The notes under the pieces are model-generated. The model was not told the DNA's origin. It made no database searches and saw only the letters and a list, made by a program, of their open reading frames with translations. The position numbers were made by a program, and so were the translations under genes. Below are positions 50,202 to 64,000 of a stretch of 64,000 bases of DNA, one piece after another. The number at the start of each line of letters is the position of its first letter. Position 1 is the stretch's first letter. The stretch covers positions 2,294,001-2,358,000 of the forward strand of contig NC_007778.1 of the NCBI RefSeq assembly GCF_000013365.1. The letters run 5' to 3'. The DNA comes from Rhodopseudomonas palustris HaA2. Its GTDB lineage: Bacteria > Pseudomonadota > Alphaproteobacteria > Rhizobiales > Xanthobacteraceae.

Positions 50202-50377
50202 AACAAGGAATATAAACCTAGTTCGTGCGCTTGGCAAGTCCGGCTGACGTGCGCCGCGCGTTTGCGGCCGGACGCGGTCCGCGTGTGCCGCACAGAAACA
50301 CTCTTTCAAGTTGTGCAATTTCGAGTTATACAATCATGGGTTGCATCATCGACCCGCGCAAACTCATGGAGGACACG

Positions 50378-50560
50378 ATGTCTGGCAGTGCGGAAGAAGG
50401 CGTGCAGATCGAACGGTCCAAGGAGCATCTCGAGGGGCTGCAGCAATTCCATTCGGCGCTCGAGAAGCTGCACACCGCCGAAGCGGAGCTGGCGCGCCTG
50501 CGCGTCGACCTGCTGTCGCGCGGCGTCGACCTCGACGTCTGCGACGAGCTCCACTGGTAG
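50378..50560 (+). CDS. Small helical peptide, possible precursor or carrier
   Basis: This 60-residue acidic peptide starts MSGSAEEGVQIERSKEHLEGL, is predicted helical by composition and ends VDLDVCDELHW, with a single cysteine and C-terminal Trp. The ATG at 50378 follows GGAGG (50368-50372). Upstream ATGs at 50366 and 50336 are in frame. It is the first plus-strand gene before the biosynthetic operon, 166 bases ahead of the desaturase. The leader-like charged helix plus short C-terminal core would fit a RiPP precursor, but a small regulatory or scaffold protein is equally possible. A weak promoter-like pair (TTTCAA, 17 bases, TATACA) lies near 50304-50330. Confidence 0.5.
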   Translation: MSGSAEEGVQIERSKEHLEGLQQFHSALEKLHTAEAELARLRVDLLSRGVDLDVCDELHW

Positions 50561-50726
50561 GCGGGCTCGCCCGCCCGCGGCGCCACGCGCCGGCCGCCTC
50601 TCGCGTGCGGGCGGTGGCTGCGGGTGGCGCCGCGCCGGGCCGCGCGGCCGCGGGCGATGATCAAGGCCCGCCGAGCGCGATGATCTCACCAACGACGCGC
50701 CGTCCGACATTGCGGAGGAGTTCGTC

Positions 50727-51638
50727 ATGCCGAGCCGTGTCCCGTCCAACCCGCATGCGCCGCTCAGGCTCGCCATCTATCTCGGCGCGATCGTTGCGCT
50801 GCTCGCGGCGATCGTCGTCGTGCCGGGGACGGCGGCCGGGATCGCAGCGGCGCTGCTGCTGGGGATCGTCTACGCCCACGGCCTCGAACTGCAGCACGAG
50901 ACGCTGCACGGCATCTTCCTCGCGACCGAGGCCGGCAACCGGCTCGCCGGCTCGCTGCTCGGCCTGCCGATGCTCACCACCTTCACCGACACCCGCGTCC
51001 GCCACCTGCATCATCACCGCTATGTCGGCACGCCGCAGGATGTGTTCGACCGCAGCTGCGCGGATTTCTCGAACCGGCGCGCGCTGCTCGGCCATGTCTT
51101 CGCGGCGACGCGGCTGCGCGATTTCATCGGCGCCACGGCGACGCTGCTGTCCGGGCGCCGGCACGATGTGCTCAAGGCCCCTGCGCGCGATCGGGCGAGG
51201 ACCGAGTTCGTCGCCACCGCGCTGATCCTGCTCGCGCTGCTCGCGCTCGCGGCGCTGATCGATCCGCGGCTGTTGCTGTGGGGCTGGATCGTGCCGGCGC
51301 TGATCGTCGCGCCGGCCGTGCACTTCCTGATGACGGTGCACGAACATATCGGCCGGCCGCGGCTGACGCGCCGGATCACCGAGAATTCGCGCAGCTACCG
51401 GGCGCCGGCGTGGTGGAACTATCTGGTCCACTACGACAATTATCACATCGAGCATCATCTGGAACCCGGCCTGCCGTTCCCGCAACTGCCCGCCTTCCAC
51501 GCCGAGCGTCGCCGCGCCGGCGCCGACAGCCTGACCTTGTCGCAGGCGATGGCCGAGACGGCGCGCGGCATCGCCGCGTGCCTGCGCGCATCCGCATCCA
51601 CCGCAACGCGAACGGAGCCGCCGCGATGTGCGCCATAG
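50727..51638 (+). CDS. Membrane fatty-acid desaturase
   Basis: The 303-residue integral membrane di-iron enzyme has three histidine boxes: HGLELQHETLHG (~51-62), RHLHHHR (~92-98) and HYDNYHIEHHLEPG (~236-249). Hydrophobic helices pair between boxes 1-2 and 2-3. It would introduce a double bond or hydroxyl into an acyl or related hydrophobic chain. Its last 13 bases overlap the asparagine synthetase gene, so it belongs to the biosynthetic operon. Confidence 0.88.
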   Translation: MPSRVPSNPHAPLRLAIYLGAIVALLAAIVVVPGTAAGIAAALLLGIVYAHGLELQHETLHGIFLATEAGNRLAGSLLGLPMLTTFTDTRVRHLHHHRYVGTPQDVFDRSCADFSNRRALLGHVFAATRLRDFIGATATLLSGRRHDVLKAPARDRARTEFVATALILLALLALAALIDPRLLLWGWIVPALIVAPAVHFLMTVHEHIGRPRLTRRITENSRSYRAPAWWNYLVHYDNYHIEHHLEPGLPFPQLPAFHAERRRAGADSLTLSQAMAETARGIAACLRASASTATRTEPPRCAP

Positions 51639-53374
51639 CCGGACTCGTCTCGCTCGATGCGCCGCCGCACGTGCGGCCGATCCTCGACGCCATCCGCCAT
51701 CGCGGCCCGGATGGGCTCGGCACGCATCGCGACGGCGCCTGCGAGATCGGCGCGGCGCGGCTCGCGATCGTCGATCCCGAACGCGGCGCGCAGCCGATGC
51801 GCGATCCGCTGTCGCAGACCGCGGTCGCGTTCAACGGCGAGATCTACAACGCCGACGAATTGCGCCGCATGCTGATCGCGCGCGGGCACCGCTTCGCGAC
51901 GCGCTGCGACACGGAAGTGGTGCTGCGCGGCTTCCTCGAATGGGGGCTGGATCTGCCAACGCATCTGTCCGGCATGTACGCGATCGCGGTGCTGGAACGC
52001 GGGCGGCTGACGCTGATCCGCGATCCGCTCGGCATCAAGCCGCTGCGCTATGCGCAGCGCGGCGCGCAATTCGCGTTCGCCTCGGAGGCCAAGGCGCTGC
52101 TGCGCTGGTTCGGCCCGCCGCGTCTCGACGAGACGGCGTTGGCCGATTTCATCGCGATCGGCTATCCGACCGGCCGCCACACCTTCTTCGCCGGGATCTC
52201 GACGCTGCCGCCCGGCCATCTGCTGACGGTAAACTGGGGGCAGGGGCTGCACGTCGCCGAGCCGCGGCCGTATCAACTACGCACCCCGCCGCCGCAGTTG
52301 CAATTGTGCGAGGACGAGGCCGAACTCGCTTTCGTCGACGCGCTGCTGGCGGCGACGAACAGCCATCTGCAGGCCGACACCGAGGTCGTGGCGGTGCTGT
52401 CCGGCGGCATCGATTCCGCGATGCTGGCCTGCACCGCGGCGGAACTGTCGGGCCGCAGGCTGCGCACCTTCACCGTCGCCGACACCGCCGAGCATCCCGA
52501 CGCCGTCGCCGCCGCGCGCGTGGCGCGGGCGATCGGCGCCGATCACACGCTGCTGACCTTCGGCTTCGACGATTACCTCGCGGCAATTCCGGCGACCATC
52601 GCGGCGGTCGAGGCGCCCGATCTGCATGCCGGGCCGTTCTTCCATCTGCTGTGCCAGGTGATCGGCGGCTGCGCCAAAGTCTGCCTCAACGGCGAAGGCG
52701 CCGACGAGACGCTCGGCGGCTACTACGATCCGGCCGGGACGATCGCCACGCTCACCGACGGCCAGGCGCGCGCGCAGGCCGCGGGGCTCGTTCCCAGCGA
52801 CCGCGCCTGCGCCATTCGCGACGGCCTGCTCGAAGCCGCCGCGAAAGGCGCCGCCGGCATCCGCGCCACGCTCGACATTTCGCTGCAGGATCTGCTGGAG
52901 CGCGCCCAGCTCGATCCGGTGGATCATCTGTCGATGGCCGCGGGCGTCGAGATGCGGGTGCCCTATCTCGACCCCGTGGTGCAGGCGGTGGTGCGGCGCG
53001 TGCCGCCGGGCGAGATCGTCGATACGTCGCTCGGCATCACCAAGCGGCTGCTGCGCCGCGCCGCGGTGCGCCGCCACGGCGCGCATCTGCTCGACAGCGC
53101 GCTGCGCGCCAAGATGATGATGCCGCACGCCTCCGGCGGCCACGCCGCGCGCTTTGCCCAGGCCTGCGATCACGCGGTGCCCGACGACGCGCTGCGTCGT
53201 CTGCCGTTCGGCGCGGGCTTCGCCAGCAAGACCGATGTCGTGCTGTTCGAACTGTTCCGCCGGATCCATCTCGACGGCGGCGGCGCTGCAGTGAAAATCG
53301 ACGACGTGTTCGCCGAGATCGCCGGATCGTCGCGCGCCGGCGCGAGCGCGATCGCGCAGGCGGCCGCGTCATGA
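51626..53374 (+). CDS. Asparagine synthetase (glutamine-hydrolysing) family protein
   Basis: The 582-residue protein is an intact class II glutamine amidotransferase. Cys2 follows the initiator Met (MCAIAGLVSL), with RHRGPDG and FNGEIYN conserved. An ATP-pyrophosphatase domain has SGGIDSAM (~259-266), LNGEGADETLGGYY and MRVPYLDPVVQAVV. It would amidate a carboxylate using glutamine and ATP. In natural-product clusters such enzymes often act on pathway intermediates rather than aspartate. The intact glutaminase domain argues against a lasso-peptide cyclase, which has lost it. It overlaps its neighbours by 13 and 4 bases. Confidence 0.9.
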   Translation: MCAIAGLVSLDAPPHVRPILDAIRHRGPDGLGTHRDGACEIGAARLAIVDPERGAQPMRDPLSQTAVAFNGEIYNADELRRMLIARGHRFATRCDTEVVLRGFLEWGLDLPTHLSGMYAIAVLERGRLTLIRDPLGIKPLRYAQRGAQFAFASEAKALLRWFGPPRLDETALADFIAIGYPTGRHTFFAGISTLPPGHLLTVNWGQGLHVAEPRPYQLRTPPPQLQLCEDEAELAFVDALLAATNSHLQADTEVVAVLSGGIDSAMLACTAAELSGRRLRTFTVADTAEHPDAVAAARVARAIGADHTLLTFGFDDYLAAIPATIAAVEAPDLHAGPFFHLLCQVIGGCAKVCLNGEGADETLGGYYDPAGTIATLTDGQARAQAAGLVPSDRACAIRDGLLEAAAKGAAGIRATLDISLQDLLERAQLDPVDHLSMAAGVEMRVPYLDPVVQAVVRRVPPGEIVDTSLGITKRLLRRAAVRRHGAHLLDSALRAKMMMPHASGGHAARFAQACDHAVPDDALRRLPFGAGFASKTDVVLFELFRRIHLDGGGAAVKIDDVFAEIAGSSRAGASAIAQAAAS

Positions 53375-54021
53375 CCGCGGTGCTGTTCGATCTCGACGGC
53401 GTGCTGATCGATAGCTGGCAGGCGGTGGAAGCCGCCTTCCTCGCAGCCGCGGCCGACCACGCGCTCGACGGCCGCGCCCGGCTGTCCGACTTTCGCGCGC
53501 GGATGGGAATGCCGCTGGAAGCGATCGTCGCCGAGTTCGGCTTTCCCTCGGGCTTCCCCGCGGCGTTTCGCGCCGCCGCGCGTCTCCACGATCCCAAGGC
53601 CCGCGCATTTCCCGGCGTCGTGGCGATGTTGCAGCACATCCGCAGCGCCGGATTGAAGCTCGGCGTGGTGACCGGGAAGGATCGGCCGCGTACGCTGTCG
53701 ATCCTCGCCGCCACCGGCCTGATCGAGCTGGTCGACGCGGTCGTCACCGCCGACGATGCGCCGGGCAAGCCCGCGCCCGACGGGCTGTGGCTGTGCGAGC
53801 GCCGGCTCGGCGCCGGCGCGGCGCTGGCCTTCGTCGGCGACACCGCGATCGATCTGGCCGCCGCGCGCAATGCCGGGCGCATCGCGATGCTGGCGCATTG
53901 GGGCGGCGGCCCGCAGGTCACGGATCGCGCCGGCGTTATCGAGGTCGCAACGCCCGGCGAGGTCACCGACCTCGTCGTCGCGCTGGCGCAGGAGGCCCGC
54001 CGGCTGGAGCCGGCGCGATGA
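53371..54021 (+). CDS. HAD-superfamily phosphatase (RifM/phosphoglycolate-phosphatase type)
   Basis: The 216-residue hydrolase has motif I FDLDGVLIDSW (nucleophile Asp7, acid Asp9), motif II VVTGKDR, motif III lysine in GKPAPDGLW and motif IV FVGDTAIDLAAARNAG. The cap domain is of the C1 alpha-helical type. In the aminoshikimate pathway RifM is an HAD phosphatase of this kind that acts around kanosamine formation. Its presence beside RifL-, RifN- and RifK-like genes supports that role. Start and stop overlaps of 4 bases on both sides show coupling. Confidence 0.88.
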   Translation: MTAVLFDLDGVLIDSWQAVEAAFLAAAADHALDGRARLSDFRARMGMPLEAIVAEFGFPSGFPAAFRAAARLHDPKARAFPGVVAMLQHIRSAGLKLGVVTGKDRPRTLSILAATGLIELVDAVVTADDAPGKPAPDGLWLCERRLGAGAALAFVGDTAIDLAAARNAGRIAMLAHWGGGPQVTDRAGVIEVATPGEVTDLVVALAQEARRLEPAR

Positions 54022-55094
54022 CGGCGCCGCTGCGGCAGGAACCGCTGCGGCTCGGCCTGTGCGGCTGCGGCTGGGTGATCCGGCATTGCTATCAGCCGGC
54101 GCTGGCGGAGCTTTCGGCGCTGTTCGAGGTCGTGGCGGTCTTCGATCCCGATCCGGCCGCGCTGCAGCGGGCCGCACATGCGTGGCCGGCGGCGCGGCGC
54201 TGCGATTCGTTCGAGGAGTTGCTCGCCGCGCATCCGGATGCGGCGGTGATCGCCTCGCCGAACGCCTGTCATCTCGACCACGCAACCGCATTGCTCGCCG
54301 CCGGCATCTCGTGCCTGGTCGAGAAGCCGGTGGTGCGCGACACGGCCGACGCCGCGCTGCTGCAGGCTGCGGCGCAGAGCGGCGCGGCGCTGGTCAGCGG
54401 CGTCGCCTGCCGCTTTCGCGATGATACACGACTGTGGCTCGATCAGGTCGCGTTGCTCGGTCCGCTCACCGAACTCGATCTGGTCTGGAGTCGCGAGCAC
54501 GGCGTGCCGTCGGCGCCGTGGCATCTGCGCCGCGCGGACGGCTGGACCGGCGTGTTCGCCGATCTCGGCTATCATCTGCTGGACCTCGCCGGCGCGGCGC
54601 TGCGCTGGCGCGCCGAACGCATCGACGTCGCCATGGTGCAACGCGCGTCACAGCGTCGTGGCGCGGGCGCCTCCTGGTATGTCGAGGGCAGCAAGGTCCG
54701 TGCCGGGTCGCTGGCCTACGACACCGACGATCGCTTCGGCGCCACGCTGGCGGTCGACGGCTGCCGGATCGGCCTGCGCGTCGCCTGGATCGACAGCGCG
54801 CGCGGCGATCTGGTGCGGCTCGAGGCGCGCGGTGCGCGGGGCGAAGCCGTGCTCAGCGGGCTGTTCGGATTTTCCGACAACCGCCGTGAGCGCGATCAGC
54901 AAGTGGTGCTGCGGCTGCACGGCCGCGACAAGATCCGTACCACATTCGAAACCGGGCCCGAGTTGCAACTTTGCGCCTTCGCGACCCTGCTGCGACATTT
55001 TCATCGCTGCGTCCGCGCCGGCGCGGACGAGGAAGCCGCCGCGCTGCGGTTCGCCGCCGCGCTCGGCGGCGCCTTGCGGGAGGCGGCGGCATGA
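54018..55094 (+). CDS. Gfo/Idh/MocA-family dehydrogenase (RifL-like)
   Basis: The 358-residue NAD(P)-dependent oxidoreductase has the Rossmann loop LGLCGCGWVIRHCYQPAL near residue 12. The conserved catalytic-lysine motif CLVEKPVV (~104-111), the SGVACRF region and a beta-sheet domain with GWTGVFADLGYHLLDLAG follow. RifL in rifamycin clusters belongs to this family and is proposed to oxidise the sugar 3-hydroxyl of UDP-glucose before transamination by RifK. The same pairing is suggested here. It overlaps the phosphatase and kinase genes by 4 bases each. Confidence 0.85.
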   Translation: MTAPLRQEPLRLGLCGCGWVIRHCYQPALAELSALFEVVAVFDPDPAALQRAAHAWPAARRCDSFEELLAAHPDAAVIASPNACHLDHATALLAAGISCLVEKPVVRDTADAALLQAAAQSGAALVSGVACRFRDDTRLWLDQVALLGPLTELDLVWSREHGVPSAPWHLRRADGWTGVFADLGYHLLDLAGAALRWRAERIDVAMVQRASQRRGAGASWYVEGSKVRAGSLAYDTDDRFGATLAVDGCRIGLRVAWIDSARGDLVRLEARGARGEAVLSGLFGFSDNRRERDQQVVLRLHGRDKIRTTFETGPELQLCAFATLLRHFHRCVRAGADEEAAALRFAAALGGALREAAA

Positions 55095-56035
55095 GCGCGA
55101 TCTTCGCCGTCGATCTAGGGGCCACCTGGCTGCGCACCGCGCGGGTCGCGCCGGACGGGCGATGGATCGACCGCAAGGCGCGGGTGCCGACGCCGGACGG
55201 CCCAGCCGAGGCGCGCAAACTGATCGAGACCGCCTGGCGGCGTGCCGGCTGCGCCGAAGCGGTGGCGCTGGCGACCGCGCCGGAACTCGACAGCGATGGC
55301 GTGGTGCGGCGCTGGCCGAACCGGCGCGACTACGAAGGCGCGCCGCTGTTGACCGATGCGCTCCGCTGCGTCGCGAGGCTCGCGCTGTTCGACGACGCCA
55401 CCGCGGCGGCGCTGTCGGCGGATGATGTCGACGGCGCCGCGGACGCGATCACGCTATGCCTGAGCATCGGCAGCGGCATCGGCGGCGGCGTCGTCATCGC
55501 GGGGCGGCCGCTCGTGGGCGCGCATCACGCGGCGATGGATGCCGGCCACATGCCGGTGCCGTCCGCCGCCGGCCTGCGATGCGCGTGCGGCCGCGACGGC
55601 TGCCTGCAGGCGGTCGCCTCCGGCGGGGCATTGCAACGGCACGGGGGCGGCGCTCTGTTCGGCGATGCGCGCGCAGAGCCGGCCTTGCATCGCGCCACCG
55701 CCGCGCTGGCGGAGGCGTTGGCGATCCTGCAGGCACTATTCGATCCGGAACGCGTGGTGATCGCGGGCGGCCTCGGCCTGTCGCCGCTGTTCGACCGGAT
55801 CGCGGCCGAATTGAAAAGAAGCGGCGTCGCGCTCGCGATCGCGCCGCATCATCATGGCGACGATGCCGCGCTGGTCGGCGCGGCGATCGGTCTGGCGCGG
55901 GGCCTCGCGCCGCGCGCGTCAACCTCGGCAGCAATATCCCCACCAGCAGCGAGAGGCGATCCACGATGCAAGGTCAGTTCTCCGAACGGATACCAGCCTG
56001 GCCGCGTTTCGACGACGCGGACGAGCGGCGCCTGA
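55091..56035 (+). CDS. ROK-family sugar kinase (RifN-like)
   Basis: The 314-residue kinase has an N-terminal phosphate loop (FAVDLGATWLRTARV), the ROK zinc site CACGRDGC, catalytic aspartate region AAMDAGHMPV and the adenosine motif SIGSGIGGGVVIAG. RifN is a ROK kinase specific for kanosamine, so a 3-aminosugar is a possible substrate. After ~residue 280 the protein continues with a low-complexity tail (SAAISPPAARGDPRCK...) that overlaps the first 70 bases of the aminotransferase gene. The original stop may have been lost. Confidence 0.85.
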   Translation: MSAIFAVDLGATWLRTARVAPDGRWIDRKARVPTPDGPAEARKLIETAWRRAGCAEAVALATAPELDSDGVVRRWPNRRDYEGAPLLTDALRCVARLALFDDATAAALSADDVDGAADAITLCLSIGSGIGGGVVIAGRPLVGAHHAAMDAGHMPVPSAAGLRCACGRDGCLQAVASGGALQRHGGGALFGDARAEPALHRATAALAEALAILQALFDPERVVIAGGLGLSPLFDRIAAELKRSGVALAIAPHHHGDDAALVGAAIGLARGLAPRASTSAAISPPAARGDPRCKVSSPNGYQPGRVSTTRTSGA

Positions 56036-57183
56036 TCGAGGTGCTGCAGTCGCGCCGGTGGTGGCGCGGCAACGGCGGCATCGGCGACGCGTTCGAAGCC
56101 GCCTTCGCGGACTCGCTCGGCGCGGCGCATGTCCGTGTCGTGGCCAACGGCACGCTGGCGCTGGAACTGGCGCTCGATGCGCTCGGCGTGCAGCCGGGCG
56201 ACGAGGTGATCGTGCCGGCCTGCACCTTCATCTCGACGGCGTCGGCGGTGCTGCGGATCGGCGCCTGGCCGATCCCGGTCGATGTCGAGCGTGACACGCT
56301 CAACATCGATGTCGACGCAGTGGCGGCGGCGATCACGCCGCGCACCCGCTGCATCGTCCCGGTGCATATGGCCGGCCATTCCTGCGACCTGTCGCGCCTG
56401 ATCGCGCTCGCCCGCAGCCACGGCCTGGCGCTGCTCGAGGACGCCGCCCACGCGCATGGCGCGCGCGCGTTCGGCAAGGCGCTGGGCACGTTCGGTGATG
56501 CCGCGATCTTCAGTTTCCAGTCCGGCAAGCTGATGACGTGCGGCGAGGGCGGCGCGATCGCTACGGACCGGCCCGATCTCGCCGCGCGCAGCTTCGCGCT
56601 GCATTCCTGCGGCCGGCCGAAGGGCGACACCGACTATCGGCATCTGATGCCCGCGACCAATATGCGGCTCACCGAATTCCAGTCGGCGCTGCTGCACGGC
56701 CAGCTCGCGCGATTGCCGGCGCTCGGCGCCCAGCGCGAGCGCGCGGCGCCGTGTTTCGAGGCGCATCTGCGCGCCGCCGGACTGACGCCGCTGGCGCGCC
56801 GGGACTATGTCGAAGCCCACGGCCGCTACATGACGATGGCGTGGTTCGATCCGGCCGCGTTCGGCGGCCGCGACGCCGGACAATTGGCGGCGGAGCTGCG
56901 CGGCCTCGGCATTCCGGCGTATCGCTGCTTTCCCGAGATCCACCGCACCGGGATGTTCGATCCGCCGGCGTTGCAGCGGTTGCAGCGATCGTCCACGCCG
57001 CCGCCGGACTACGCGCGGATCGCGACGCCGGTCGCCGCCGCCGCGTCGCGTGCGGCGATCTGGTTCGCGCATCCGATCCTGCTCGGCGACGACGAATTGT
57101 TCGCCGACATCGCCCGCGCGATCGGCGAATTGCGACAGCCGCAACGCGCCGCGACGCCCCTGTCGCTGTCGGAGACGGCATGA
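55966..57183 (+). CDS. DegT/DnrJ-family aminotransferase, AHBA-synthase-like (RifK-like)
   Basis: The 405-residue PLP enzyme has the Schiff-base lysine at residue 188 in FSFQSGKLMTCGEGGA. The segments PAWPRFDDADERRLIEVLQSRRWWR, VVANGTLALELALDALGV, HMAGHSCDLSRL, HSCGRPKGDTDYRHL and NMRLTEFQSALLHGQLARL closely follow 3-amino-5-hydroxybenzoate synthase RifK, which has its lysine at the same position. RifK has two jobs: it transaminates UDP-3-keto-glucose and aromatises aminodehydroshikimate. Which applies here is unknown, because the aminoDAHP and aminoDHQ genes are not in the window. ATG 55966 follows GAGAGG. Confidence 0.9.
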   Translation: MQGQFSERIPAWPRFDDADERRLIEVLQSRRWWRGNGGIGDAFEAAFADSLGAAHVRVVANGTLALELALDALGVQPGDEVIVPACTFISTASAVLRIGAWPIPVDVERDTLNIDVDAVAAAITPRTRCIVPVHMAGHSCDLSRLIALARSHGLALLEDAAHAHGARAFGKALGTFGDAAIFSFQSGKLMTCGEGGAIATDRPDLAARSFALHSCGRPKGDTDYRHLMPATNMRLTEFQSALLHGQLARLPALGAQRERAAPCFEAHLRAAGLTPLARRDYVEAHGRYMTMAWFDPAAFGGRDAGQLAAELRGLGIPAYRCFPEIHRTGMFDPPALQRLQRSSTPPPDYARIATPVAAAASRAAIWFAHPILLGDDELFADIARAIGELRQPQRAATPLSLSETA

Positions 57184-58550
57184 GCGCGCCGCGCCGCATC
57201 GATGATCTGATCGCGTTGATCCGACGCGGACGGGTGCTGCTGCCGGACGGCCGCGACGTGACGATCGCGGAGGCTTGGCACGACGCCGAGACCGATCCGG
57301 CGGCGCGATGGATCGCGCCGGGCGACCGCGTGGTGTTGTCCGAGCCTGCCGGCGCCGATCTGGTACGCGCCACGCTCGCGGTGTGGGCGCAAGGCGGCGT
57401 TGCGGTGTTCGGCGTCGATCCGCATCGCTGCGGCGACTGGCCGGCCGATGTTCGCGTGCGGAGCTGGCCGGACGGCGCGGTGCTGCACGATGCGTCGCCG
57501 CGCACCGACGCTGTGGCTGTGATCCATACGTCGTCGGGAACGACGGGGCGGCCGAAGCTGGCGCGCAGGTCGTTCGAGAGCCTCGCGGCCGAGGCGGAGC
57601 GCTATGCCGCGTGCTACGCGCCGGCCGCCGGCGCGCGCGCTTATCTGGCCGCGCCGATCACGCACTCGTTTGCATTCGGCGCGATGCTCGGTCTGCTCGC
57701 GGCCGGCTGCGTGGTGCAAGTCGCGCCGGTGTTCCGGCCACGCGCGCTGGCGGACGCATTGCGCGGCGGCGCCGACATCGTCGTGCTGACGCCGCCGATG
57801 GCGCGGCTTGCGATCGAGGCGGCGCAGGAGCGCGATCAGCCGCTGCGGTGCGCGCCGCAGCTGGTGATCGCCGGCGCCGGCGCCGTGCCGGGCCGGCTCG
57901 ACGCGGAGTTTCGCCGCGCATTCGGCTGCGGCCTCGCGCGCAACTACGGCGCGTCGGAAACCGGCGCGAGTTTCGGCGCGGCGCAGTCGCTGCCCGAGGG
58001 CTGCCTCGGCCGGCCGTTCCGCGGCGTCCGTGTCGTGTCGCCCCGGCCGGGCGACCACATCGGCGAACTGATCGTCGATCTCGACCACCCGATCCTCAGC
58101 CTCGAAGGCAAGACCGCGACGCCACCAATGCAGCGCGGCCTGTGGCGCAGCGGCGATCTCGCCGAGGTCGACGACGATCAACGGGTGTGGCTGCGCGGAC
58201 GGATCGACGATCGCGTCAAGATCAACGGCCATCTGATCGATTGCGCCGCGCTGGCGGCGCAGGCGCGGGCGGCGCCGGGCGTCAGCGATGCGGTGGCGCT
58301 GGCGCTGCCACGGCCGCAGCGCGGCGAGATCCATGATCTGGTGCTGATCTGCGAGTGCCGCGATGAGGCTGTGTCGGCGGCCGATATCAGCCTGGCTGCG
58401 ATGCCGCAGACGCCGATGATCGTGCTGACCCGGACCGAATTTCCGCGCACGGCGGCGGGCAAACCGGATCGCGACCAATTGCGCAGCTTCGCCGAAGCGC
58501 GGCTGCGCCGCGGGGCGGCGCGAGGCGAGATGCAAGGCGAGCCGCGATGA
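57180..58550 (+). CDS. Stand-alone AMP-dependent ligase (adenylation enzyme)
   Basis: The 456-residue ANL-superfamily enzyme has core motif HTSSGTTGRPKLARRS (~117-132), NYGASETGASFG, RSGDLAEVDDDQRVWLRGRIDDRVKINGHLID (hinge and A8) and the C-terminal catalytic lysine in FPRTAAGKPDRDQL. It should activate a carboxylic acid as the adenylate and load it onto a thiol, most likely the ACP encoded at 61558. It is shorter than usual (~500) at the N-terminus. Acid specificity cannot be read. It overlaps both neighbours by 4 bases. Confidence 0.88.
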   Translation: MSAPRRIDDLIALIRRGRVLLPDGRDVTIAEAWHDAETDPAARWIAPGDRVVLSEPAGADLVRATLAVWAQGGVAVFGVDPHRCGDWPADVRVRSWPDGAVLHDASPRTDAVAVIHTSSGTTGRPKLARRSFESLAAEAERYAACYAPAAGARAYLAAPITHSFAFGAMLGLLAAGCVVQVAPVFRPRALADALRGGADIVVLTPPMARLAIEAAQERDQPLRCAPQLVIAGAGAVPGRLDAEFRRAFGCGLARNYGASETGASFGAAQSLPEGCLGRPFRGVRVVSPRPGDHIGELIVDLDHPILSLEGKTATPPMQRGLWRSGDLAEVDDDQRVWLRGRIDDRVKINGHLIDCAALAAQARAAPGVSDAVALALPRPQRGEIHDLVLICECRDEAVSAADISLAAMPQTPMIVLTRTEFPRTAAGKPDRDQLRSFAEARLRRGAARGEMQGEPR

Positions 58551-59563
58551 ACGCAGCCGGGCGCAGCATCGAAATCGATCGCTGCGCGCGCGACGCGGTG
58601 GCGCTGCTGCCGCATGTCGTGCCGCATCGTGACGGCCTGCAGACGCTCGGCGGCCGAGTGATCGCGCTGCCGGCGCCGGCCCGCGCGCTGGTCGCGCGCT
58701 TTGCCGAGGGGCATGAATTCGACGACGACGAATTGTCGGACAGCGAGCGCGCCGCCGCGCGCGATCTGATCGAGGCCGGCTATCTGCTGCGTCTGCCGCC
58801 GGCCCGGCCGATCGATCGCGCGGCGCCGGTCGACGTGGTGCTGTCACCGCATATCGACGACGCCGCATTGTCACTCGGCGGCACCATCGCGCAGGCACGA
58901 CGCCGCACGCTGGTGGTCAACGCGTTCACCTCGCAATCCTATCAGACCGGGCTGCGCGTGCCGCCCGAGCGGCTCGATGCGGTGGCCTGCGCCGAGGATC
59001 GTTTGGCCGGCCGTCTGCTCGGCTACGATGCCGTCTCGCTCGGCCTCGCCGGCGCGCAGGACCGGCATCGGCTCGGCCTGTCGGCGACGATGGGGTGGCC
59101 GCCGCGCGATGTCGCCGATCGGTTTGCGGGCGAGATCGACGCCGTGGCGCAGCGCGCCGTGGCGGCGATCCGCAACGCGCTCGGCCGAGCAGCGATCGGC
59201 AGCCTGTACGCGCCGGCCGCGATCGGCGGCCATCTCGATCACGTGGTCGTCGCGCTGGCGGGGCCGGCGATCGCGGCGGCGCTCGGGCTGTCGCCCGGCG
59301 CCGTCGCTTACTACGAGGATTTGCCTTACGCCGCGGCCGGCTGGCGCGGTGGCGTCGAGCTGCGCGAGCGCGCGCCGCGTTTCCGCGATATCTCCGCCGC
59401 GCTGGAGCGCAAGCGCGCGGCGCTGGCGATCTTCAAGACGCGGCTGCGCGCGCCGCAGATCGAACTCTGCATCGCCCACGCCGCACGGATTGCGCAGCGC
59501 GGCGCGGTGGAGCGTTGCTATCGGCGCAGCGGCGATGAAGTGCAAGCGGAGGATGGCGGATGA
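58547..59563 (+). CDS. PIG-L (LmbE-like) zinc deacetylase with N-terminal extra domain
   Basis: Residues ~93-338 are a PIG-L deacetylase: VVLSPHIDDAALSLGG (zinc-binding PHxDD at 101-105) and the later GGHLDHVVV histidines. Relatives remove acetyl from N-acetylglucosaminyl lipids or mycothiol and bacillithiol precursors. Residues 1-85 form a separate domain whose pattern (ALPAPARALVARFAEGHEFDDDELSDSERAAARDLIEAGYLLRL) resembles a PqqD-like winged helix, the fold used to bind peptide substrates in RiPP pathways. That resemblance is weak and inferred by eye. It is coupled to the radical SAM gene. Confidence 0.82.
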   Translation: MNAAGRSIEIDRCARDAVALLPHVVPHRDGLQTLGGRVIALPAPARALVARFAEGHEFDDDELSDSERAAARDLIEAGYLLRLPPARPIDRAAPVDVVLSPHIDDAALSLGGTIAQARRRTLVVNAFTSQSYQTGLRVPPERLDAVACAEDRLAGRLLGYDAVSLGLAGAQDRHRLGLSATMGWPPRDVADRFAGEIDAVAQRAVAAIRNALGRAAIGSLYAPAAIGGHLDHVVVALAGPAIAAALGLSPGAVAYYEDLPYAAAGWRGGVELRERAPRFRDISAALERKRAALAIFKTRLRAPQIELCIAHAARIAQRGAVERCYRRSGDEVQAEDGG

Positions 59564-60744
59564 AGCATCTGCTGTATCACGACCTGATCGTCGCCGGAAA
59601 CTGGTGCAACCTGAAATGCAGCTATTGCACCAGCGTCGCCGACGCCGACGATTACGGCGCCGTCACCTCGGCGTCGCGGCGCGGCAGGGGCGCGACCATC
59701 GCGATCGCCGAGGTGCTGGCGATGCTCGACGGTTTCGCCGCGCAGGTCGACGCGCCGCTGATCAAGCTGAGCGGCGGCGAATTGTTCCTGCTCGCCAACG
59801 CCGCCGAGCTGATCGCCGAGCTGGCGCAGCGCTACGCGCATGTCCAGGTGCTGACCAACGGCACCGAACTCGACGCCGCGACGGTGCAGCGCATCGCGCG
59901 GCGCGGCAACGTCTCGTTCAACCTGTCGCTCGACGGCCATAGCGCGGCGATGAACGCGATGCGGTGGCGCTCGCCGCGGATCGGCGCCCGGGTGATGGCG
60001 GCGTTCGCGGCGATGGTTCAGGCGTGCGAGACGGTCGAGATCACCAGCGTGATCAGCGCGGCCAATGCCGAGGGCTTTCCGGCCTTTCTCGACGTGCTGG
60101 CAGCGCAGCCTTGCCGCATCGTCGCGGTGCCGATCCCGGTGCGCGGCGTCACTGCCGCAGTGCTGTTTCCGGCCGAGGCGCGCCGCGCCTTCGCGGCGAC
60201 GCTGCGGGCCTGCGTGCGGACACATCCCGACGTGCTCGGGCCTGCCGCTTACTACACGACGCTCGCGGATTTCCTCGACGCCGGCGGCGCGCAGCGCGAG
60301 CGGCGCTGCCATCTCGTCACGGCCGCCGTGCAACTCTTCGACACCGGCGCGGTGACGCCGTGCCCGGTGGGCTGGACCGGTGCAATCGGCGATCTGCGCA
60401 AAGAGGGCGCCGCATCGGTCGCGGCGCGGGTCGGCACGCACAAGATGTACGACCTGCTGACGCGCGAGCGGCCGCGGGTGCCGGTCTGTCGCAACTGTTT
60501 CAGCGCCGCCGACATGCTCAATCTGTATCTCGACGGCGAGATCGAGCTCGACGCGCTGGCGCGGCTGCCGCTGTATCACTCCGCCGCGGCCCGGGCGCGG
60601 CTGGTCGAACTACGCGAAGCCGCCGTCAGCCGCTTGACGGCGTCGATCGTATCGCAACTCGGCAGCAGCGAGATCAGCAGCAGATCGGCCAGCGCCGGCG
60701 GATCGGCGTCGCCGATGGCGATGCCGGCGCGCGCCGCGACCTGA
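59560..60744 (+). CDS. Radical SAM enzyme with C-terminal extra cysteines
   Basis: The radical SAM cluster motif CNLKCSYC is at residues 16-23, very close to the N-terminus. KLSGGELFLL follows, with VLTNGTELDA and FNLSLDGHSAAMNAMR in the TIM barrel. A C-terminal region has further cysteines (RRCHLVT, VTPCPVGW, VCRNCF) that suggest a SPASM/twitch-type auxiliary iron-sulfur cluster. Such enzymes modify peptides, sugars or alcohols. The last ~55 residues are Ser/Ala-rich and overlap a gene on the other strand by 169 bases, so the original C-terminus may have ended earlier. Confidence 0.88.
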   Translation: MKHLLYHDLIVAGNWCNLKCSYCTSVADADDYGAVTSASRRGRGATIAIAEVLAMLDGFAAQVDAPLIKLSGGELFLLANAAELIAELAQRYAHVQVLTNGTELDAATVQRIARRGNVSFNLSLDGHSAAMNAMRWRSPRIGARVMAAFAAMVQACETVEITSVISAANAEGFPAFLDVLAAQPCRIVAVPIPVRGVTAAVLFPAEARRAFAATLRACVRTHPDVLGPAAYYTTLADFLDAGGAQRERRCHLVTAAVQLFDTGAVTPCPVGWTGAIGDLRKEGAASVAARVGTHKMYDLLTRERPRVPVCRNCFSAADMLNLYLDGEIELDALARLPLYHSAAARARLVELREAAVSRLTASIVSQLGSSEISSRSASAGGSASPMAMPARAAT

Positions 60745-61409
60745 GCCGCCTGCGCCTGCGCGCCGGGCCAGTCGTGCGCGAGGCAGGCCTGCAGCGCCGC
60801 CGCGAACGCCGCTTTGTCGGCGAGCCAGCCCTCGGTCGCGGCGCCGAGCCGGCGCAGCCGGTCGCGGGCTTCTGGCGCGCAGAGTTCGGCATGATCGGCT
60901 TGCGCGGAGTTGTCGCGCAAGGCCGCGACCGATGCGGTGGCGGCGACCAGCCGGTCCAGCGATGTCGCCGGCGCGAGCTGCTGGGCGACGAACAGTCGCG
61001 TCCGCGGCGTCAGCGCCGCGCGCGGGTCGATCAACGCGGCGATCCGCTTCAGCGAGGCGCGGCGCAGCGCATTGGCCGCGAATGCATCGGGCACCTCGAA
61101 CGGCAGATAGGCGAGCGCCAGCGCGAAGCCGGCTTCCTCGGTGTTCAACGTCGGCGTTGCCGCACGCAGCATCGCGCCCGCCGATCCGGCATCACCCTCG
61201 CAACGCAGCAGCCGGCGCAGCGCCTCGCCGTCGCAGAGGCCGTCGTCGATCGCCCGGATCGCGGCGGCGAGCGCGCGGAGCTGGCGCATGTCGGCGGTGC
61301 CGATCGTGGCGCCGAACATATGCGCCATCGGCACCAGCTGCTGCTTGGCGGCGAATTCGCGCAACATGCTGCGCCCCCAGGCGCGGTTCTCGTCGATCAA
61401 GTCGGACAT
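60576..61409 (-). CDS. Unrecognised 277-residue helical protein, antisense within the cluster
   Basis: The protein is Ala/Leu-rich and mostly helical (SDLIDENRAWGRSMLREFAAKQQLVPMAHMFGATIGTADMRQLRALAAAIRAIDDG...). It has no signal peptide or membrane helix, and its composition is natural for a real protein. I do not recognise a family. The region 60745-61409 has no better plus-strand candidate. ATG 61409 follows AGAGG; an in-frame ATG at 61454 is possible. Its 3' end overlaps the convergent radical SAM gene by 169 bases. It diverges from the ACP gene, so it is the only opposite-strand member of the cluster. Confidence 0.6.
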   Translation of the reverse strand: MSDLIDENRAWGRSMLREFAAKQQLVPMAHMFGATIGTADMRQLRALAAAIRAIDDGLCDGEALRRLLRCEGDAGSAGAMLRAATPTLNTEEAGFALALAYLPFEVPDAFAANALRRASLKRIAALIDPRAALTPRTRLFVAQQLAPATSLDRLVAATASVAALRDNSAQADHAELCAPEARDRLRRLGAATEGWLADKAAFAAALQACLAHDWPGAQAQAAQVAARAGIAIGDADPPALADLLLISLLPSCDTIDAVKRLTAASRSSTSRARAAAE

Positions 61410-61557
61410 GGGCCTCTGCCAGATCGGCGCGCAGCGACGCGTCGATGAATACAACCAATACGGGAAATCAGATTGACAGAAACCGTATAAGTTGCAAAGC
61501 TGGCGCTGTTATCACAGAAGTTGCGCCGCTTGCGGCGCCGGCAGGGAGGTCGCAGCC

Positions 61558-61893
61558 ATGGTCCAGGCCCATCCGACGAGCCTCGCGACGCCGCCCGACA
61601 CGCGGGCGGACACGCTCAGCGAAGCCCTGACCCGCATTCTCGGGGGCATTCTCGCGGCCAAGGGTGGCCTGCCGGACGATGTCGATCTGTCGACCGCGAC
61701 CTTCACCTCGCTGGATTTCAACTCGGTCGACTATCTGGAATTCGTGCTGAACGCCGAGGCCGATCTCAATCTGGATATTCCGGACGAAGCCGTGCTCGAT
61801 CCGTCGCTGTGTTCGGTCGCCACCTGGGCCGCATGGCTGGCGGCGCACGCCGATGAGCTCGCGACGCCGGCGATCGGGTCGGCCGGCGCATGA
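61558..61893 (+). CDS. Acyl carrier protein
   Basis: The 111-residue carrier protein carries the phosphopantetheine-attachment serine at residue 56 in FTSLDFNSVDYLEFVLNAEADLNLDIPDEA, which corresponds to the usual D-S-L motif with Asn and Val variants. It is the probable acceptor of the acid activated by the AMP ligase encoded at 57180. The ribosome-binding site AGGGAGG (61542-61548) fixes ATG 61558. A TTGACA at 61473-61478 in the AT-richer gap could belong to a promoter that starts a second transcript here. The stop overlaps the next gene by 4 bases. Confidence 0.85.
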   Translation: MVQAHPTSLATPPDTRADTLSEALTRILGGILAAKGGLPDDVDLSTATFTSLDFNSVDYLEFVLNAEADLNLDIPDEAVLDPSLCSVATWAAWLAAHADELATPAIGSAGA

Positions 61894-63686
61894 CCGGCGC
61901 CGCGCGCGCGCCGCTGCGGGTGGCGCTGGTCGGGCCGCGCGAACAGCCCTTCGCCGGCGATCCCGATCGCGAGCATCGCGAGACGATGCTGCGCAGCTAC
62001 GCGGAGATCTGCGACAGCGTCGCCACCTTCGGCTCGGACTTCACGCTGTCGCGCGAATTTCTCGGCATCGAATATCTCGCGGCGACGCTGCGGCGCGACG
62101 GCCGCATCGTCCGCGTGCTGTCCGCCGCCAATGAGGGGCTGGACGACGATGCGCTGCTCGCCGAACTACTGGCCTTCGCGCCGCGCATCGTCGGCCTCTC
62201 GGTGCTGTACGATCTGCAACTCGGCAATGCGCTGGTGCTGGCGCGGCGGCTGAAGGCGGCGCGGCCCGGTCTTGCCATCGTGTTGGGCGGTCCGCTCGCC
62301 ACCGCGCTGTCGCAGGAACTGCTCGGCACCTTCGCCTTCGTGGACTACGTCGTCGAAGGCGAGGGCGAGGCGGCGTTGAGCCGGCTCGCTGATGCGATCG
62401 AACGCGGCGAGGCGCCGAGCGACGTGCCGGCGCTGGCGCATCGCGGCCCGGGCGGCATCGTCCGCAATCCGCGCGGCGCGCCGCTCGATCTCGACCGCCT
62501 GCCGCATCCGGCGCGCGACGGCCTCGCGTCGATCCGCGCCCGCGGCCTGCCGGCGCCGAGCGCCTATCTCACCACCTCGCGCGGCTGCAAGGCGTTCTGC
62601 ACCTTCTGCACTGTGCCGGGCAGCGTGCGGAGCCTGAAGAGCGGCGTCTACCGGATGCGCGATCCGGTCGACGTGGTCGACGAGATCGAAGAGTTGGTGC
62701 GCGATCACGGCGTCAGCCGCTTCTACATGGCCGACGACAATTTCCTCGGCTATGGCGAGGACAGCAACGCGCGGATGCATCGCTTCGCCGACGAGATCCT
62801 GCGCCGCCGGCTCGCGATCCATTTCCACGCCGAATGCCGCGTCGACTCGCTGATCCCGGAGACTCTGGTCAGACTGCGCGCCGCCGGCTTCGACCAGATC
62901 CTGTTCGGCCTGGAATCCGGCTCGGCGCGGACGCTGAAGCGCTGGGCCAAAGGCCAGACGGTGGCGCAGAACGAGGCCGCGATCGCGCTGGCGCGGCGGT
63001 TGCGCATCGAGATGATGCCGAGCCTGATCCTGCTCGACTGGGAGTCCGACCTCTCCGAGATCGAAGAGACGATCGGCTTCATCGAGCGCAACCAATTGTG
63101 GCGCAGCGGCCAGCCGCTGTGGCTGGTCAACAAGCTCAAGGTCCATTGCGGCACCGCCGCCGCGCGCCGCTACGACAGCGTGCACGGCCGGCCGACGCCG
63201 CCCGCGGTCGGCTATTCCGACGCCGATATTCATCGTTGGTGCGAGACCGTGACCTATCAGCACGTCGGCATCGACGATGTCTATGTCGCGGCGTTCTGGC
63301 GCGCGCTCAACGCCGCCGCCAATCGCTGGTCGGTGCTGATCGACGAGGTGCTGCCGCCGTTTCTGAAGAGCCTGCGCAGCGAGGCGCGCCGCGGCGACCG
63401 GACCGATCGCCTCGAACTGGTGCGCCGGCTCGCCGCGTTCCGCCGCTCGATCGGGGCGTCGCTCGCCGCGCTGATGCGGCTGCTGATCGATCAGGCGATC
63501 GCGATGCAGCAGGCGCGCGCGCCGCAGCCGGATCTGCGCGGGCTCGCGCTGGCTCATGTCGAGGCGCAGGAGCGCCGCTTCTTTCCGGAGGGTCTGCATG
63601 TGGCCTTGCAGGATACCGGCCGCCGCCGCGCCGTTGCTGGTCATGCCATCGGCGCGCGGCTGGGCGAGATCGTTTCGACCGCGTGA
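61890..63686 (+). CDS. Cobalamin-binding-domain radical SAM enzyme (class B type)
   Basis: The 598-residue protein has an N-terminal B12-binding-like Rossmann domain (~15-165; IVGLSVLYDLQLGNALVLARRLKAARPGLAIVLGGPLATAL) lacking an obvious DxHxxG cobalamin histidine motif, as in many class B enzymes. The radical SAM barrel follows, with CKAFCTFC (Cys233, Cys237, Cys240), FYMADDNFLGYGEDS and ILFGLESGSARTLKRWAKGQT. A ~150-residue helical C-terminus is unusual. Relatives methylate unactivated carbons or carry out ring rearrangements. It is coupled to both the ACP and the glycosyltransferase genes, so its substrate may be carrier-bound. Confidence 0.9.
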   Translation: MTGAARAPLRVALVGPREQPFAGDPDREHRETMLRSYAEICDSVATFGSDFTLSREFLGIEYLAATLRRDGRIVRVLSAANEGLDDDALLAELLAFAPRIVGLSVLYDLQLGNALVLARRLKAARPGLAIVLGGPLATALSQELLGTFAFVDYVVEGEGEAALSRLADAIERGEAPSDVPALAHRGPGGIVRNPRGAPLDLDRLPHPARDGLASIRARGLPAPSAYLTTSRGCKAFCTFCTVPGSVRSLKSGVYRMRDPVDVVDEIEELVRDHGVSRFYMADDNFLGYGEDSNARMHRFADEILRRRLAIHFHAECRVDSLIPETLVRLRAAGFDQILFGLESGSARTLKRWAKGQTVAQNEAAIALARRLRIEMMPSLILLDWESDLSEIEETIGFIERNQLWRSGQPLWLVNKLKVHCGTAAARRYDSVHGRPTPPAVGYSDADIHRWCETVTYQHVGIDDVYVAAFWRALNAAANRWSVLIDEVLPPFLKSLRSEARRGDRTDRLELVRRLAAFRRSIGASLAALMRLLIDQAIAMQQARAPQPDLRGLALAHVEAQERRFFPEGLHVALQDTGRRRAVAGHAIGARLGEIVSTA

Positions 63687-64000
63687 TGGCGATGTCGCAG
63701 CCGCCGGCGATCTCGATCATCATCCCGACCCGCGACAAGCCGGAGCGGTTGGTGCTGATGCTGTATGCACTGCTGTGCCAGCGCAGCGGCAATGCACGCC
63801 GCATCGAGACCATCCTGGTCGATGACGGCAGCGCCGCGCCGATCGAACCCTTGCTGGCGCCGCTGCGCGCGCAGGGTCTCGAGGTCGAATTGATCCGGAC
63901 CGCAGGCATCGGCCAGGCGGCGGCGCGCAATCGCGGCGCGGCGGCGGCGCGCGGCGAGTTGCTGCTGTTCGTCGACGACGACGTGCTGCTGTCGCCGGAC
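63686..64000 (+). CDS. Family 2 glycosyltransferase, cut by the window end
   Basis: The visible 105 residues start at the TGATG overlap with the radical SAM gene. They show a GT-A fold: AISIIIPTRDKPERLVLMLYALLCQ, ETILVDDGSAAPIEPLL, GQAAARNRGAAAARGELLLFVDDDVLLSPD, the last containing the DxD-type metal motif. It would transfer a nucleotide-activated sugar, possibly the aminosugar made by the preceding genes. The rest lies beyond base 64000. Confidence 0.88.
   Translation, partial: MAMSQPPAISIIIPTRDKPERLVLMLYALLCQRSGNARRIETILVDDGSAAPIEPLLAPLRAQGLEVELIRTAGIGQAAARNRGAAAARGELLLFVDDDVLLSPD

Follow-up and report, generated by a model that had tools for sequence, protein, structure and literature searches.

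The closest described relatives of the locus analysed here are the kanosamine/AHBA pathway with the genes rifKLMN and ntdABC, the butirosin side-chain pathway represented by BtrI/J/K, and the pathways of mycofactocin and PQQ, which are RiPP cofactors. The locus itself is a cluster of about 18.7 kb, which extends from position 50378 to about 69077 and continues about 5 kb beyond the end of the window, i.e., the whole stretch of 64,000 nucleotides under study (Table 1; coordinates above 64000 carry the window numbering on into the extended sequence). The initial annotation had listed the enzymes from the desaturase to the glycosyltransferase, and all these classes are recognized in the same order by Pfam/NCBIfam models, with key motifs such as Cys2 and SGGIDS in the AsnB-like protein, DLDG in the HAD phosphatase, PHIDD and GGHLDH in the PIG-L protein, and CX3CX2C in both radical SAM proteins (g9, g12). 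Its remark that PKS and NRPS are absent was borne out among all proteins scanned with these models (49521 to 69789). The extent of the cluster had been underestimated; to its genes must be added those for a 60-aa peptide and for the minus-strand protein g10 as well as, at the far end, three encoding a PLP enzyme (g14), a BtrK-like decarboxylase (g16), and, between them, a putative C25-like protease (g15). The proposed start at 50378 is in fact the start codon of the peptide, which had gone unmentioned. The described overlaps of 1–13 bases apply to most genes, with one exception of 70 (13, 4, 4, 4, 70, 4, 4, and 4 bases from the desaturase to the radical SAM gene, according to predicted start sites), and the near-gapless plus-strand run is broken by the conserved gene g10, which converges tail-to-tail on g9, the first of the two radical SAM genes, the ACP gene beginning anew behind g10.

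Table 1. Genes of the cluster with their positions in window numbering and the matches or features on which the labels are based.
Gene	Product	Position	Strand	Evidence
g0	putative precursor peptide, 60 aa, ends ...CDELHW	50378..50560	+	11 copies in 7 genomes
g1	desaturase-fold enzyme	50727..51638	+	PF00487 131.6 bits
g2	AsnB-like glutamine amidotransferase with Cys2 and P-loop	51626..53374	+	TIGR01536 317.6 bits
g3	HAD phosphatase	53371..54021	+	best NCBIfam AHBA_synth_RP 106 bits
g4	Gfo/Idh sugar dehydrogenase	54018..55094	+	PF01408 67.7 bits
g5	ROK sugar kinase	55091..56035	+	PF00480 100.4 bits
g6	DegT aminotransferase	55966..57183	+	best PDB AHBA synthase
g7	stand-alone AMP ligase	57180..58550	+	PF00501 84.3 bits
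g8	PIG-L deacetylase-like, ~90-aa N-terminal domain	58547..59563	+	PF02585 28.9 bits, cut-off 28.2
g9	radical SAM	59560..60744	+	PF04055 51 bits
g10	conserved all-helical protein of unknown fold	60576..61409	-	44-54% identity in 7 relatives
g11	acyl carrier protein	61558..61893	+	PF00550 18.2 bits, below cut-off 20.8
g12	B12-binding radical SAM	61890..63686	+	PF02310 65, PF04055 64 bits
g13	GT2 glycosyltransferase	63686..64594 (window end 64000)	+	PF00535 63 bits
g14	class I/II PLP enzyme	64580-65980	-	PF00155 71.8 bits
g15	putative C25-like cysteine protease	66055-67794	+	conserved H/C motifs, weak C25 profile match
g16	BtrK-like decarboxylase	67791-69077	+	best PDB BtrK

Seven other genomes, namely a Hyphomicrobiales MAG and six Aurantimonas genomes, carry the gene set in largely conserved order with protein identities of 30–72%, which is more than can be ascribed to chance and makes it near certain that the genes represent one discrete pathway. 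The earlier proposal of a discrete pathway without PKS or NRPS, consisting of an aminosugar and a carrier-protein branch, is thus well supported by synteny, and the homologues are not scattered, the outcome that would have spoken against it. The same interpretation had also offered an aminoaryl unit as one option, which finds no support (see below), and had not named the conserved peptide at the cluster head. Some genes vary in their occurrence: the HAD gene was not found in five of six relatives and was found outside this genome only in the MAG cluster, the Gfo/Idh gene was not found in one of six, i.e., the MAG cluster, and in Aurantimonas the cluster also includes SpeD, BpsA, a second ACP, and a protein labeled by eye as FkbH-like. 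The cluster shows a patchy distribution and is rare among bacteria, and no plasmid-borne copies were found in PLSDB at E 1e-60. Positions 50248..68941 are absent from a sister genome (G002), where the flanking DNA is directly joined (blastn). Since G002 retains codons 385–429 of the decarboxylase gene beside the left flank (45 codons, stop included), a loss in that genome fits better, and a recent insertion into the genome studied here was rejected. Another genome of the genus (G003) shows no such scar, and nothing after its left-flank gene matches 47.2–78.3 kb. A defence system was also rejected, as PADLOC matched only the two radical SAM proteins among seven proteins submitted (25–39 bits) and, weakly, a flanking HTH gene.

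The conserved peptide at the head is the feature that changes the picture of the cluster. Eleven copies were found in seven genomes including this one, all of which end in D[SE]LHW, and in all six relatives whose upstream half is covered, the conserved genes begin with the peptide, which is present in one or two copies. Tandem copies keep the C-terminus and differ in their N-termini. Fourteen positions are invariant among ten aligned peptides (the eleventh, G821, lies outside the alignment), and the pN/pS values of 0.02–0.54 in the eight pairs tested indicate purifying selection. No Pfam or NCBIfam model matched the peptide below E 0.05. In these six relatives, the protease-like gene comes directly after the peptide gene. 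As judged from the conservation of a small gene in this leading position, the chances are roughly even that the peptide is the precursor and substrate of the pathway.

The reading we prefer, at a probability of about 0.5, is that of a discrete cluster for a RiPP hybrid, in which the C-terminus of the peptide would be modified by two radical SAM enzymes, released by a protease, and decorated. A helical leader of the peptide would recruit the enzymes, perhaps via the N-terminal domain of g8 (PIG-L). The C-terminal (S/E)LHW would be modified by g9, g12, and the desaturase-fold enzyme, and the C25-like protease would release the modified fragment. Kanosamine (3-amino-3-deoxyglucose) would arise from the action of the ROK kinase (phosphorylation), the Gfo/Idh enzyme (C3 oxidation), the DegT enzyme (amination), and the HAD phosphatase (dephosphorylation). 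The AMP ligase would load an amino acid onto the ACP, and the BtrK-like enzyme would decarboxylate it in the ACP-bound state, yielding an amine-bearing acyl unit. In the last steps, the product may be amidated by the AsnB-like amidotransferase, glycosylated by the glycosyltransferase, and deacetylated by the PIG-L hydrolase. Against this reading, aminosugar, ACP, and decarboxylase genes are generally unusual in RiPP clusters.

The enzymes presumed to act on the peptide show affinities to both RiPP and other families. The radical SAM protein g9 contains further conserved cysteines (C250, C268, C310, and C313 in the alignment) and has the peptide maturase SkfB as best PDB match (38.7 bits); it scores 30.5 bits on the SkfB model (cut-off 300), and its best NCBIfam match among 25 of 35 listed is the heme d1 enzyme NirJ (45 bits, cut-off 515). 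For the B12-binding protein g12, the best matches are the small-molecule enzyme OxsB in the PDB (102 bits) and the RiPP C-methyltransferase rSAM_ocin_1 in NCBIfam (120 bits, below the cut-off of 282), and for the desaturase-fold enzyme the arginine hydroxylase GntB in NCBIfam (50 bits, cut-off 380). None of the cluster enzymes reaches the cut-off of a curated RiPP family among the matches listed (25 of 35 for g9). The conserved protein g10 is all-helical in an AF2 model predicted from six sequences (mean pLDDT 77.1), for which Foldseek returned no PDB match at E<=0.001.

The N-terminal domain of g8 is weakly assigned as an RRE-like recognition element. RREs have three helices, and the AF2 model of this domain, predicted from three sequences with a mean pLDDT of 78.5, contains two. 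A lasso-peptide B1 leader-binding protein ranks first in Foldseek, but with an E-value of 0.38 and a TM score of 0.38, and there is no Pfam PqqD match. In a comparison with domains from 13 of 30 PqqD loci, the score was reached by one of 200 column shuffles with all 13 domains and by none of 200 with four of these, in different registers and against a lenient null. The assignment of g15 as a protease is likewise weak. H179 (GHGDG), C248 (NTC), FGDP, and C446/C449/C473/C476 are invariant in six sequences, and neither a protease family in Pfam nor a PDB entry was matched. Aligned by hhalign to Peptidase_C25 (PF01364) using nine C25-type stretches (nine of ten C25 loci), g15 gave a probability of 2.7% and P 0.017, with 0 of 100 shuffles as good, and the C25 model matches nowhere in this genome. 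A CHAT protease (PF12770) was rejected, because there is no Pfam match and hhalign to nine CHAT domains, from 20 loci, performed no better than shuffles (12 of 100 as good). C25, CHAT, caspase, and gingipain are absent from the main text of a review on RiPP leader proteases (PMC10885120).

As judged from sequence, the DegT/Gfo-Idh/ROK/HAD set fits kanosamine formation. The best PDB match of the aminotransferase is the AHBA synthase RifK (1b9i/1b9h, 273 bits), followed by 2-deoxy-scyllo-inosose aminotransferase (202 bits), the dehydrogenase matches a putative oxidoreductase (8zn9, 58 bits) and then DgpA (46 bits), and the kinase is closest to glucokinase (3vov, 72 bits). The HAD phosphatase, which scores below the AHBA_synth_RP cut-off of 247, probably belongs to this sugar branch. 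An AHBA-synthase-like DegT protein, as in the AHBA pathway, is present, but AHBA was rejected as product because no aminoshikimate genes, i.e., no aminoDAHP synthase, aminoDHQ synthase, or dehydratase, were recognized in the cluster (49521 to 69789). The amidotransferase exceeds its TIGR01536 cut-off of 267 and best matches a hydroxyamidotransferase in the PDB (7ylz, 131 bits).

In the carrier-protein branch, the ACP and the decarboxylase resemble, at the level of protein families, the ACP-bound decarboxylation by BtrK in butirosin formation. The ACP contains the motif ...LDFNSVDYLEF..., the Ser of which is kept in seven relatives, and the decarboxylase scores 208 bits with BtrK in the PDB vs. 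138 with the next DAP decarboxylase; the ACP and BtrK-like decarboxylase of a butirosin-type side chain are thus both present. The AMP ligase is nearest to the 2-oxoglutaryl-ACP ligase AmcH in NCBIfam (74 bits, cut-off 370) and to a salicylate-AMP ligase in the PDB (63 bits). The PLP enzyme g14 scores 79 bits on the GntC model (cut-off 415).

These two branches lend some weight to an aminoglycoside-like small molecule, which we consider possible but rather unlikely. Kanosamine would be acylated by an ACP-carried decarboxylated amino acid in the manner of the butirosin side chain and further modified by g9 and g12, and the protease would process the peptide as an accessory factor (an adaptor, chaperone, or regulator, for instance). 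The RifK and BtrK matches, the presence of ACP and AMP ligase, the proximity of g12 to OxsB, and the additional Aurantimonas genes agree with this, whereas the invariant D[SE]LHW end and the one or two tandem peptide copies look like a substrate, and the ATP-grasp amino acid-ACP ligase of the butirosin kind (BtrJ) was not recognized among the cluster proteins scanned, which contain an AMP ligase instead.

An intracellular peptide-derived cofactor of the PQQ/mycofactocin kind, with the C-terminal His-Trp rearranged by the radical SAM enzymes, excised, and glycosylated, appears improbable. It would account for the C-terminal aromatic residue next to radical SAM enzymes, a protease-like protein, and a GT2 protein (77 bits on the MftF model, cut-off 280), and for the fact that the scanned cluster proteins of this genome include no transporter, but the mycofactocin (MftC-type) radical SAM model yields 36.5 bits at a cut-off of 265, and the many sugar and acyl genes and the patchy distribution speak against it. 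Still less probable is a role in decorating a glycan or lipid at the cell surface, as in exosortase-A (XrtA) loci; the NCBIfam models of such loci cover, among others, an AsnB-like protein, an AMP ligase, and a BtrK-type decarboxylase. Despite 275 bits of g16 on dCO2ase_PEP1 and 224 bits of g2 on eps_aminotran_1, the cut-offs of TIGR03098/03099/03108 are missed (40.5/592, 275/478, and 224/817 bits) and no exosortase, polymerase, or export gene was found among the cluster proteins scanned.

In weighing the RiPP hybrid, the D[SE]LHW end, the adjacency of the peptide and protease-like genes in six relatives, and the SkfB, rSAM_ocin_1, lasso B1, RifK-like, and BtrK-like matches were counted for it, and the missed RiPP cut-offs, the NirJ and OxsB matches, the weak RRE and protease assignments, and the gaps of HAD and Gfo/Idh in relatives against it. 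We tentatively suggest, as a narrower and less secure proposal, that the RiPP hybrid may represent a new RiPP class. Its radical SAM enzymes, one with extra cysteines and one of the B12 type, would remodel a His-Trp or Ser/Glu-Leu-His-Trp end while it is still part of a carrier peptide, a C25-like protease would release it, and kanosamine and an ACP-made amine acyl unit would be attached to it. No matching pathway was found in the open-licence literature searched, and as far as these searches reach, such peptide/sugar/acyl-carrier hybrids are a kind without description. If the peptide is the substrate, the logics of ribosomal peptides, aminosugars, and acyl carrier proteins would be joined in one pathway, and the protease-like g15 might represent RiPP peptidases of a new kind. 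The combination may indicate a natural product or cofactor of a new type, and the short peptide gene is a simple genetic handle on the origin of the product.

Compared with the known systems, the cluster shares with the kanosamine/AHBA pathway a DegT protein nearest to RifK, a HAD protein closest, though below cut-off, to the AHBA-associated phosphatase model, Gfo/Idh, and ROK, but the aminoDAHP/aminoDHQ steps were not recognized in it and peptide, ACP, and radical SAM genes lie alongside. As in the butirosin side-chain pathway, a BtrK-like decarboxylase occurs with an ACP, whereas an AMP ligase replaces the ATP-grasp ligase and a BtrO-like monooxygenase was not recognized. Among the radical SAM enzymes of RiPP pathways, SkfB is the top PDB match of g9 and rSAM_ocin_1 the top NCBIfam model for g12, but the scores are far under the family cut-offs and the precursor is unrelated. 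With mycofactocin and PQQ, finally, the cluster has in common a small peptide with a C-terminal aromatic residue, a radical SAM enzyme with extra cysteines, and a GT2 protein, whereas the families differ by score and the cluster features an LHW C-terminus together with sugar and ACP modules.

The locus that begins near the right end of the window (bases 2294001-2358000 of a one-contig genome of 5.33 Mb) is close to certain to be a conserved biosynthetic locus serving one pathway. Genes were called from open reading frames, GC3 and start sites, with DNA past the window end included, and the gene list of the initial annotation is borne out by Pfam and NCBIfam profile matches. A gene does start where the cluster had been taken to begin, and it encodes a 60-residue peptide that had gone unnamed, as had g10, a minus-strand gene inside the cluster; the proposed extent to 64000 falls short, as three more genes lie beyond. 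Very G+C-rich inverted repeats just 3' of the peptide stop form a possible attenuator, with a folding z-score of only -2.2 and without a terminator-like T tail. The adjoining small HTH protein gene is regarded as flank rather than cluster, because nearly the whole gene matches the sister genome G002 at 89%.

Features of the locus and of related stretches (positions in the window unless a stretch is named; those above 64000 are extended window coordinates, i.e., 62000 plus the position in L005, a stretch that reaches past the window end)
Feature	Position	Strand	Remark
Small HTH protein gene	49521-50204	minus	Flank
Putative peptide, 60 aa	50378 (start)		Ends ...CDELHW
Inverted repeats	50555-50730
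g10	60576-61409	minus	Between first radical SAM gene and ACP gene
PLP enzyme	64580-65980	minus	Past window end
Protease-like protein	66055-67794		Past window end
Decarboxylase	67791-69077		Past window end
EamA-like transporter	L014:1559-2554; L016:2260-3138	minus	Equivalents in L017 and G821
Aurantimonas inserts	L010:2926-7618; L007:4491-7534		Also in relatives
ORF of ~1365 aa, A. marina	L014:14472-18569	minus	Between BpsA and second ACP
PqqD-family match	G000:C1:3909432-3909623	minus	Window genome, far from cluster

Searched against the collection, the B12 radical SAM protein matches 28 stretches, with relatives encoded in six; within the genus to which A. marina belongs, it is found in five of eight genomes, including a new one (G821). 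The gene-neighbourhood comparison suggested in the initial annotation, performed by tblastn with all cluster genes after adding the missing halves of loci, finds the set in seven other genomes with its order mostly kept: a Hyphomicrobiales MAG, A. marina, A. endophytica, G821, A. coralicida (on two contigs), A. marianensis (on two contigs, with the break within the B12 gene) and an uncultured Aurantimonas (downstream half only). The genes for the peptide, protease-like protein, desaturase, AsnB, ROK, DegT and AMP ligase (one copy cut by a contig end) occur in all six relatives with the upstream half covered, those for PIG-L (the sixth falls into a contig gap) and Gfo/Idh in five, and that for HAD in one. 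Radical SAM, g10, ACP, B12 radical SAM, glycosyltransferase, PLP enzyme and decarboxylase genes are present in all seven relatives with the downstream half covered. The only exception to the shared order concerns the protease and decarboxylase genes, which adjoin each other in the window genome only, the decarboxylase also being flipped relative to the relatives.

At the thresholds used, the cluster is rare in genus- to phylum-level samples. Its own genome is the sole match among 61 relatives at E 1e-60 (none of 15 other members of the genus) and in the order-level (1/397, 1e-80), class-level (1/385; B12 profile 1e-60, peptide profile 0.001) and phylum-level samples (1/398; radical SAM profile, 1e-30), which overlap, had few candidates scored per genome and would miss distant relatives at these thresholds; no PLSDB plasmid matches at E 1e-60. 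The G+C content (1-kb steps) is 68-75% at 50-69 kb versus 60-69% at 46-49 kb and 65-66% at 70-71 kb. In G002, the DNA matching 49579-50247 and 68942-69805 is joined directly (blastn), and 50248-68941 is missing. G002 retains the last 45 decarboxylase codons (385-429, stop included), in frame, 82% identical and abutting the left flank. The common ancestor therefore probably had the cluster, with a later deletion in G002, rather than a recent insertion here. The deletion scar lies in G002:C1 at about 7330-7505 on the reverse strand of stretch L096, with the junction around a shared CCGGC. Since 47.6-49.6 kb is without match in G002 and 47.2-78.3 kb without matches in the same-genus genome G003, this chromosomal site is variable within the genus.

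The position of the peptide gene, the fixed C-terminus, the duplication and the neighbouring protease-like gene point to the peptide as substrate or scaffold of the pathway, to which we assign a probability of about 0.5; the chief competing reading is that the product is an aminoglycoside-like molecule and the peptide only a helper. Eleven copies of 60-67 residues occur in seven genomes including that of the window, and ten of them (that of G821 lies outside the alignment) share 14 invariant positions, among them the terminal D, L, H and W. Neither Pfam nor NCBIfam has a family for these ten: their best E values, 0.059 (Strep_SA_rep), 0.067 and 0.093 (NodA), are near chance. Across eight pairs, the second Aurantimonas copy gives pN/pS values of 0.02-0.03, and the remaining pairs give 0.27-0.54.

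The C-terminus reads DSLHW in the Aurantimonas copies and DELHW in those of the window and the MAG, whose clusters are without the extra genes of six Aurantimonas genomes (BpsA, SpeD, a second ACP, GNAT, SDR and an FkbH-like protein, labelled by eye, with only weak Pfam phosphatase matches below cut-off); descent alone could explain this split. The BpsA-like, SpeD, FkbH-like, second ACP and GNAT genes are inserted between those for PIG-L and radical SAM, which would fit the addition of a polyamine or glyceryl unit. The A. marina cluster also contains a large ORF whose N-terminus carries an HTH (HTH_3 in Pfam, for the portion in L007), and a divergent EamA-like transporter gene (family by eye) adjoins the peptide gene in Aurantimonas loci.

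The protease-like protein carries invariant GHGDG and NTC motifs (T to S in one sequence), together with FGDP and cysteines like those of a zinc ribbon. Its similarity to Peptidase_C25 is weak (probability 2.7%, P 0.017, 0/100 column shuffles, a lenient null), and the Peptidase_C25 model has no match in the window genome; CHAT does not fit. At the N-terminus of the PIG-L protein, a small domain of ~90 residues is predicted, made up of two helices and several strands (block pLDDT 81-93 across residues 21-80). Foldseek of this model against PDB gives no match at E 0.001; lasso-peptide protein B1 with leader peptide ranks first (E 0.38, TM 0.38), and many other entries are methionine aminopeptidase 2. 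When the domain is aligned as a profile against 13 PqqD-family domains, 1/200 column shuffles scores as well, and 0/200 against four of the 13 chosen by eye as unlike the PQQ type, again under the lenient null, with HHalign probabilities of only 5-12% and registers differing between two alignments. The window genome has one PqqD-family match. Because of the lenient null, the PqqD and C25 links are hints, weak but relevant.

As to known systems, DegT is nearest in PDB to the AHBA synthase RifK (273 bits; 202 for the next, 2-deoxy-scyllo-inosose aminotransferase), ROK to glucokinase, and Gfo/Idh to a putative oxidoreductase followed by DgpA, a glucoside C3 oxidase; the nearest NCBIfam model of HAD is the AHBA-associated phosphatase, under cut-off. 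From these matches, and by analogy with known kanosamine chemistry, we infer that the sugar branch may lead to kanosamine; however, HAD turning up in only 1/6 relatives and the search finding no Gfo/Idh in the MAG cluster count against it. The AsnB-like protein, a candidate for amidation, has Cys2 and the P-loop, scores above the NCBIfam Asn-synthase cut-off and is nearest in PDB to a hydroxyamidotransferase. The radical SAM protein g9, with further conserved cysteines (C250, C268, C310, C313), is nearest to SkfB in PDB and to NirJ in NCBIfam, far under cut-off, and the B12 radical SAM protein to OxsB and, under cut-off, to a RiPP C-methyltransferase model. The carrier branch consists of the AMP ligase, the ACP and the decarboxylase, which is closest to BtrK in PDB (208 bits vs 138 for the next DAP decarboxylase).
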